Assembly (NCBI RefSeq): GCF_002355635.1
Contig: NZ_AP017558.1
Span: forward strand, 1,302,001 to 1,366,000
Length of the DNA stretch: 64,000 bases
Origin: Halopenitus persicus
GTDB lineage: Archaea; Halobacteriota; Halobacteria; Halobacteriales; Haloferacaceae
Direction: 5' to 3'
Below, piece by piece: positions 2,654 to 56,779 of the stretch. Both the position numbers and the translations under genes were made by a program. The notes under the pieces were generated by a model. It ran no database searches. It saw only the letters and a list, made by a program, of their open reading frames with translations, and was not told the origin of the DNA. Every line of letters begins with the position of its first letter. Position 1 is the stretch's first letter.

Positions 2654-3010
2654 TCAGCGCTCGTCGATCGCTATCGGTTGCCCGTCCGCCGAGCGGCGCT
2701 TCGGGACCGTGAGCTCGAGCACGCCGCGGTCCATCGTCGCCGCCGCCTCCGCGCCGACGCCGTCGGGGGGTAAGGGGAGGTCCACGTCGAGGAACAGCGG
2801 CCGATCCTCCCGGACGTACCGGTACCCCTCCGGGGTCGCCTTCTCCCGGCGGGCCTCGATGTCGATCCGACCCGCATCGGCGACGACCTCGGTCGTCTCG
2901 CTGGTCGCGCCGGGGAGATCGACGACCAGAACGTATGCGTCCTCCGACTCGAGGAGATCGGCGAACACCGCCTCGGGGAGGTCCCGAAGCGCATCGCGGA
3001 GCGCGGACAT
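2654..3010 (-). CDS. Hsp20/alpha-crystallin family small heat shock protein
   Basis: A 118-residue small chaperone made almost only of the alpha-crystallin domain (from DAYVLVVDLPGA to GVLELTVPKR), with about 20 residues before it and a very short tail. Such proteins hold unfolding proteins in solution. The tail lacks a clear I-X-I/V oligomer motif (it ends QPIAIDER, where IAI could serve). The ATG at 3010 was chosen because the longer open frame runs through moeA on the other strand. It is the first gene of a likely pair with the ABC1 kinase, and it is divergent from moeA with 174 bases between. Confidence 0.88.
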   Translation of the reverse strand: MSALRDALRDLPEAVFADLLESEDAYVLVVDLPGATSETTEVVADAGRIDIEARREKATPEGYRYVREDRPLFLDVDLPLPPDGVGAEAAATMDRGVLELTVPKRRSADGQPIAIDER

Positions 3011-3054
3011 ACCAACCGATACACGCGGGAGGTCGAAAAAGGGTGTGGTCGCGG

Positions 3055-3125
3055 GAGACGGCCAGCGAGACGCGACGCCGGCTGGTCGGCGGGACGCCGC
3101 GCTGGCTGGTCGGCGGGACGTGACG
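3055..3125 (+). repeat. Imperfect tandem repeat in the hsp20/moeA divergent region
   Basis: GCTGGTCGGCGGGACG occurs twice about 31 bases apart, in the 174-base gap between two divergent genes. No TATA-like box is part of it. It is one of many short tandem repeats in this window. Confidence 0.6.
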
Positions 3126-41490: not shown

Positions 41491-41555
41491 TGCGCCGTCC
41501 GGGAGTCCCGTGAGCGAAGCGAACGGGACGTCGGACGGCGCACGACCGCAGGGAG
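41491..41555 (-). repeat. Foldback copies of the tRNA-Gly 3' end
   Basis: Directly after the tRNA (reading the minus strand) come a 13-base spacer (41543-41555), an inverted copy of the last 11 tRNA bases (41532-41542), a second stem (41523-41528 with 41506-41511) around the loop GAGCGAAGCGA (41512-41522), and a direct copy of the last 14 tRNA bases (41491-41504). The inverted and direct copies pair perfectly over 11 bases. It could also act as a terminator. The same design follows tRNA-Leu. Confidence 0.9.
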
Positions 41556-41626
41556 TGCGCCGTCCGGGAATTGAACCCGGGCTATTAGCTTGGGAAGCTA
41601 ATGTCCTACCACTGGACCAACGGCGC
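41556..41626 (-). tRNA. tRNA-Gly (anticodon CCC)
   Basis: A 71-base cloverleaf with no intron. Acceptor GCGCCGT pairs with ACGGCGC, the D stem is GTCC/GGAC, the anticodon stem is TTAGC/GCTAA around TTCCCAA (anticodon CCC), and the T stem is CCGGG/CCCGG around TTCAATT. The discriminator is A and no CCA is encoded. A TATA-like GTTCAAGTA lies about 31 bases upstream. Confidence 0.95.
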
Positions 41627-56436: not shown

Positions 56437-56521
56437 GCGGGGGTGGCTGAGCCTGGCCAAAAGCGGCGGACTTAAGATCCGCTCCCGTAGGGGTTCGAGG
56501 GTTCAAATCCCTTCTCCCGCA
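56437..56521 (+). tRNA. tRNA-Leu (anticodon TAA)
   Basis: An 85-base class II tRNA without intron. Acceptor GCGGGGG pairs with CTCCCGC, the anticodon stem is GCGGA/TCCGC around CTTAAGA (anticodon TAA), the variable arm is TCCCGTAGGGGTTC and the T stem GAGGG/CCCTT encloses TTCAAAT. The discriminator is A and no CCA is encoded. Its 3' end is repeated downstream. Confidence 0.96.
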
Positions 56522-56779
56522 TCCACGGCGCGAGCAGCGGCGCGAGCGCCGTGGGTAGCTGAAGGATTTGAACGAGGGAAGTCGCAGCGCCGAGCGGAGC
56601 GAGGCGATCGTCTTCCCGGGGTTCAAATCCCTTCTCCCGCATCCACGGCGCGAACAGGTCGTGAGCGGCACGTCTCGGCGGGGGTTTGAACGAGGCCGGT
56701 CGCGCGCAGCGACGCGAGCACGTCCGGACGTCGTTCAAATCCCGTCTCCCGCATCCACGGCGCGAACAGGTCGTGAGCG
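56499..56779 (+). repeat. tRNA-Leu 3'-end array: alternating direct and inverted copies
   Basis: Direct copies of the tRNA 3' end and its flank sit at 56499-56533 (the tRNA itself), 56619-56653 (35 bases identical, exactly 120 downstream) and 56733-56779 (one mismatch in the tRNA part). Between them are inverted pieces: GCGCCGTGG at 56546-56554, GGATTTGAAC at 56564-56573 and TTTGAACGA at 56685-56693. Spacer loops hold GAGC(G/A)-AGCGA-type sequence. No complete second tRNA can be folded. It occupies most of the 361-base gap before larC. Confidence 0.95.

Follow-up and report, generated by a model that had tools for sequence, protein, structure and literature searches.

REP/BIME elements are clustered short intergenic hairpins with conserved internal mismatches. 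The 3′ ends of tRNA genes are the classic entry point of mobile DNA in archaea and bacteria. Integrases of archaea favour these ends (PMC8371274). The casposase duplicates 14 bp, and casposons show 14-bp duplications at tRNA-Leu and tRNA-Pro ends; CRISPR repeats measure 25–50 bp (PMC6977970). The SMR-A elements and PATEs of Haloquadratum are ~110 bp long, non-coding and palindromic with a strict target preference, SMR-A targeting the near-terminal palindromes of IS605-type elements, with fixed terminal repeats and no target duplication (PMC3119063). Here we describe an array of tRNA-derived repeats behind the tRNA-Leu(TAA) gene of Halopenitus persicus, in a 64,000-nt stretch of contig NZ_AP017558.1 (the window; positions are counted from its first letter). 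Casposons, integrons, small mobile repeats and tRNA attachment sites each match it in part, yet for none of them do all the defining features fit. This array and its relatives look like an undescribed family of insertions behind tRNA genes.

Behind tRNA-Leu(TAA) lie two units (Table 1), in each of which flank is followed by an inverted T-loop arm, then a hairpin core and lastly a direct copy of the tRNA 3′ end. The preliminary description of this DNA had reported alternating direct and inverted copies; these are confirmed, with the correction that they follow a regular order of flank hairpin, inverted arm, core and direct copy. The direct copies of the 21-nt block G53–N73 have the spacing that it gave, 120 and 112 nt. 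In 64 kb, ~3e-8 exact chance copies of this block are expected. The 35 identical bases it counted are those of the first pair of copies, and comprise the block, two to three upstream G and 12 nt of flank. Each inverted arm pairs with the next direct copy as a stem, arm, core and copy together making one large stem, while the flank between copies is itself predicted to fold as a hairpin. The proposed chain of large foldbacks holds, with z = -3.1 for the RNA fold of the whole array stretch and 0/100 shuffles as stable; the loops are AGCG-rich, in agreement with the motif pointed out before, and the core is GC-rich. Neither plain terminators nor simple attachment-site duplication accounts for the alternating orientation, as had been argued. 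In the sister genome (G001; the present genome is G000) the core order of this array is kept and flank parts are swapped.

Table 1. Positions of the array components behind tRNA-Leu(TAA), and of a type II unit elsewhere in the window.
Feature	Positions	Strand	Remarks
tRNA-Leu(TAA)	56437–56521	+	copied block G53–N73 = 56501–56521; ARAGORN call, Rfam tRNA match
Flank hairpin H1, unit 1 (TCCACGGCGCGAG...GCGCCGTGG)	56522–56554	+	predicted stem
Inverted arm, unit 1 (GGATTTGAAC), complement of tRNA T-loop/T-stem	56564–56573	-	covariation across units
Hairpin core, unit 1, class C (GTCGCAGCGCCGAG...GGCGATCGTC)	56574–56620	+	core shared with the sister genome G001
Direct copy 1 of tRNA 3′ end (G53–N73), exact	56621–56641	+	
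Duplicated flank (TCCACGGCGCGAACAGGTCGTGAGCG) 3′ of copy 1	56642–56667	+	
Inverted arm, unit 2 (GGGTTTGAAC)	56682–56691	-	
Hairpin core, unit 2, class B (GTCGCGCGCAGCG...GAGCACGTC)	56692–56732	+	core-alone search: tRNA-adjacent units in 22/60 genomes
Direct copy 2 of tRNA 3′ end (1 mismatch)	56733–56753	+	
Duplicated flank 3′ of copy 2; array end	56754–56779	+	
13-nt acceptor copy (CCCGGACGGCGCA) behind tRNA-Gly(CCC) 41555–41626, hairpin before copy (type II unit)	41491–41503	-	same kind of unit at other tRNAs

Unit anatomy was compiled from 326 units, found behind 226 tRNA loci (14 isotypes); gaps between copies run from 45 to 244 bp, inside the size limits of the search. Direct copies carry 0.75 mismatches on average to their own tRNA and 6.83 to other tRNAs (no more than four mismatches to the own tRNA were allowed, which cuts the tail of the distribution, not the contrast), and T54–N73 is exact to the own tRNA in 215/326 units. 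The left edge is sharp, identity being 1.00 at position 53, 0.86 at 52 and 0.25 at 51; on the right, identity is 0.91 at N73 and 0.52 at the next base, compared with a background of 0.53, and the duplicated block measures 20–21 bp. The inverted arm is present at ≥10 of 12 positions in 210 units, in 0 shuffled sequences and in 7 direct-orientation controls. At position 57, which was not used to locate the arm motif, it covaries with the local tRNA in 232 of 248 cases (A/T 153, G/C 79, mixed A/C 8, mixed G/T 5; p = 3e-48), and positions 62–65 also covary beyond independence. The core is bounded on both sides at tRNA T54, by the inverted arm on the left and the direct arm on the right, and the arms read GTTCRAATCC. 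The complementarity of arm to tRNA peaks at the T-loop and weakens toward the acceptor end, on which ground the idea of a primer-binding site was set aside. The cores form shared classes (the commonest being TCAGGGAG...GACCGTGG), which recur at different isotypes. To account for the covariation of the inverted arm, either selection must maintain pairing in a folded recognition site, or the local tRNA end must serve in a copying step; the self-templated copying suggested in the preliminary description may still be the source of the arm. The flank hairpins of many units have loops of the GARCGNAGYGAG type in common across the order, and such loops may occur more widely between genes of haloarchaea.

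Relatives were searched with the array DNA and with the arm pattern GGATTYGAA-N25..55-GTTCRAATCC, the reversed pattern serving as control. The unit plan was present in 48 of 60 related genomes, with 0 matches to the control, and in a phylum sample the arm pattern matched 51/53 genomes of the order versus 1/242 outside it. The genomes that gave no pattern match include G007, G010, G015, G025, G044 and G166. When the class A pattern was run over 84,980 species genomes, all among the matches listed were haloarchaea by title except one metagenome-assembled genome titled only Euryarchaeota. Class A units sit 3′ of a same-strand tRNA in 112 of 124 cases (median 60 bp), where the tRNA end is duplicated. 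A query with only the class B core, which uses no tRNA sequence, returned places bearing tRNA-type tails, 28 of 31 rows lying 50–370 bp downstream of a tRNA on the same strand; since one L259/L278 array is listed twice, this amounts to 25 of 28 distinct places. The plan recurs at further tRNA genes of the same genome and throughout the order, and chance or a local oddity, which the preliminary description had kept in view, is clearly excluded. Arrays hold 1–5 units and are patchily distributed: in the present genome, roughly 10 of ~45 chromosomal tRNA genes carry them, and the sister has different sets. Trp, Tyr, His, Cys, Ile and Asn tRNAs are missing among the array-bearing genes of the 326-unit set, a biased sample in which this is a lead only. 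Two Natrinema species carry orphan units (L314 and L358) at the same place by the same neighbour gene; these lie away from any tRNA, and no integrase was seen.

The phages searched gave no match. Among the first 80 pattern matches listed from viral contigs (IMG/VR), only L137 is such a unit, behind a tRNA-Glu and taken as host flank, and the others are mostly phage tRNAs or chance. Plasmids gave two matches, one within the tRNA-Cys of a plasmid tRNA cluster and the other ~65 bp 3′ of a tRNA-Val. On these counts a phage or plasmid origin was rejected. The preliminary description knew of no named family, and we found none: the array matches no Rfam family (only tRNA, rRNA and sub-threshold matches were returned), and a description of such arrays was not found in the open-access literature, so that an earlier one may exist elsewhere.

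We read the array as non-coding insertion cassettes lined up behind a tRNA gene, at its 3′ end. They would enter beside the tRNA and re-assort through their tRNA-derived arms; we give this reading a probability of about 0.45. A recombination or insertion event that duplicates the T54–N73 block, or depends on it, would place each new cassette beside the tRNA, which would thereby be rebuilt, while older cassettes would move downstream, decay and swap parts at the T-loop-derived arms. The folded hairpin, with its arms, mismatched spacer, inner stem and variable loop, would be the structure recognised by a trans-acting enzyme. Slightly more tentative is the proposal that the arrays represent a new class of non-coding mobile cassette targeting the T-loop-to-3′-end block of many tRNA isotypes, with a folded recombination site whose arms come from the local tRNA, unit addition on the tRNA side, shuffled arrays and a putative haloarchaeal recombinase.

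The order of units within arrays bears on this reading. Among 76 arrays of at least two units, 37 have a proximal copy that resembles the tRNA more closely in sequence, in 5 it is the distal copy that does so, and in 34 the two are equal (p = 4e-7), a polarity that stands at ~31:3 with one array per similarity cluster. Arrays are also shuffled between genomes: G046 has the unit order a-b-c at Gly-GCC where G114 has a'-a-c-b, and Ser-TGA carries 2 units in G046 versus 5 in G114, with cores re-paired to other flanks. The present genome and its sister differ at Arg-TCT, Leu-CAA, Leu-TAG, Glu, Ala-GGC, Gly and Val, arrays at several tRNAs being present in only one of the two genomes or decayed in its partner. 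Taken together, the sharp edges, the local copy, the shared cores, the proximal polarity and the shuffling fit a site-specific reaction on T54–N73 better than slippage. Several points weigh against insertion cassettes. The duplication extends into the flank in 57 of 324 units, and a target duplication alone leaves the covarying inverted arm unexplained. The hairpin energy is no worse in distal units, and the polarity could also be explained by gene conversion being commoner beside the tRNA. Neither the phages nor the first 80 viral-contig matches yielded a free, viral or excised cassette, and no enzyme was tied to the arrays in this analysis. Gene-free tRNA-end arrays in nearly every haloarchaeon tested point to an undescribed recombination activity, and since they differ between sister species the question is open to laboratory test.

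In growing by ordered steps next to a fixed leader, the arrays would resemble CRISPR and integrons, whose genes are missing here. They would share with CRISPR a leader-proximal growth with repeat duplication, and they share with casposons a target-site duplication at the tRNA 3′ end with both edges sharp, although of 20–21 bp instead of 14 bp. They differ from Cas1 systems in duplicating T54–N73 and in inserting a hairpin, one arm of which is complementary to the target; casposons moreover encode a polymerase and Cas1 and have fixed terminal inverted repeats, whereas the gaps in the arrays are short and their arms vary with the host tRNA. PF01867 (Cas1) is absent in 41/60 genomes, including the array-rich G016, G038 and G046, and Cas1 occurs in 14/41 near-complete genomes with the pattern and in 4/6 without it; Cas1 was rejected as driver. 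Like integron cassettes, the units would accumulate from a fixed site; they end in an imperfect hairpin (inverted and direct arms, mismatched spacer, variable loop) and vary in order, as between G046 and G114. Unlike them, they hold no gene, and their arms are the tRNA T-loop GTTCRAATCC, tracking the host tRNA, not a GTTRRRY box. No integron integrase (TIGR02249) scored above the cut-off in any of 40 genomes, and this candidate driver was likewise rejected.

Among small mobile repeats, SMR-A and PATEs resemble the arrays in being ~110 bp, non-coding, haloarchaeal and palindromic, with a strict target preference; the arrays differ from SMR-A in targeting tRNA 3′ ends, in having arms that copy each tRNA and in duplicating the tRNA end. 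They differ from REP/BIME in lying nearly always 3′ of tRNA genes, in a fixed orientation, with arms that are copies of the local tRNA. The tRNA attachment sites of tyrosine integrases (e.g. SNJ2-like) likewise have the tRNA 3′ end duplicated and the tRNA rebuilt, but the arrays hold no integrase or cargo between the copies, carry an inverted arm and shared cores, and copy the block from T54, not the 13-nt end.

The main rival to insertion cassettes is a passive DNA mechanism with no dedicated enzyme, a mechanism that we consider unlikely, where template switching or slippage at the tRNA end would produce direct-inverted-direct duplications and gene conversion would spread the cores. Haloarchaeal cells are polyploid. 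That the arms are always local is in line with such a mechanism, as are cores flanked by universal T-loop arms, suited to ectopic exchange among tRNA loci. The duplications at Glu-TTC and Leu-CAA, which take in 25–64 bp of flank, and the block duplications (a 4-fold near-identical repeat in G016, a 2-unit repeat in G114) also favour it. It does not, however, predict sharp T54/N73 edges in hundreds of units, nor inserted material drawn mostly from a few shared core classes, nor the proximal polarity.

An action at the RNA level is improbable. Here the hairpins would act within the tRNA precursor in 3′ processing, termination or regulation, with compensatory changes keeping the stem, and the arrays would be a widespread, variable tRNA trailer; no assay of such a trailer was found. 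The covarying stems, the cores conserved between sister species while flanks drift, and the fixed orientation relative to the tRNA speak for it, whereas the patchy distribution, the variable copy number and the lack of an Rfam family speak against it. Mismatches in the arm stems number 119 G.T versus 105 A.C, without a clear G.U excess, and leave unsupported the processing or termination tail considered in the preliminary description. In the core stems, an apparent A.C excess of 69 to 12 resembled the effect of bottom-strand folding, as of integron recombination sites; a single fixed C.A mismatch of class B accounted for it, and after clustering it was gone and stem mismatches showed no strand bias. 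Selection for a G.U-tolerant RNA stem was rejected, and the absence of strand preference is weak evidence for DNA over RNA.

Tyrosine integrase genes adjoin arrays separated from their tRNA in L076, L086, L401 and L449, the elements being placed between tRNA and array. At the junctions read (L076, L086, L449) the shared site is the 13-nt acceptor end (61–73), not T54–N73, and the array is pushed aside; ordinary attachment-site duplication by one element was rejected on this evidence, and the array is not the remains of one integrated element, an origin weighed in the preliminary description. The integrases seen lie outside the arrays, and as units with gaps of 45–244 bp leave no room, no integrase gene lies between the duplicated sites. 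These tRNAs are thus attachment sites; there is no sign, however, that the arrays are the work of the integrases seen. That arrays are footprints or decoys of tRNA-targeting integrases, surplus attachment sites that integrative elements left behind or that the host retains as a defence against them, is very improbable: elements do use array tRNAs, G046 retains the uninterrupted site of the G114 insertion and a degraded element follows a downstream array copy in L114, yet at least four elements are inserted between tRNA and array instead of at an array copy, so that decoying, raised in the preliminary description and only weakly possible, would be inefficient. At tRNA-Arg(TCG), L449 (G114) and L127 (G046) show cleanly the occupied and the empty site of an integrase element with the 13-nt core CCTGCAACGCCCA, and the array marks the displaced flank.

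Array copies can mislead annotation through spurious open reading frames and false attachment-site calls. In the window (41491–41626, minus strand), the type II unit of tRNA-Gly(CCC) is followed by an apparent degenerate T-loop unit (GGGATTGTACC). The first unit behind tRNA-Leu(CAA) of the present genome (L103) copies a longer part of the tRNA, from the anticodon stem onward, with a hairpin in the variable region. On the Haloarcula halophila plasmid NZ_CP119561.1 (~2885–3070, L253), a class B core lies inside the T-arm of a tRNA-Cys at G53/T54, in a plasmid tRNA cluster, and this tRNA is broken or possibly spliced. Finally, a dense cluster of ~15 tRNA genes, separate from the chromosomal tRNAs and probably viral or plasmid in origin, is found at G000:C1:1153325-1154999 (L094).
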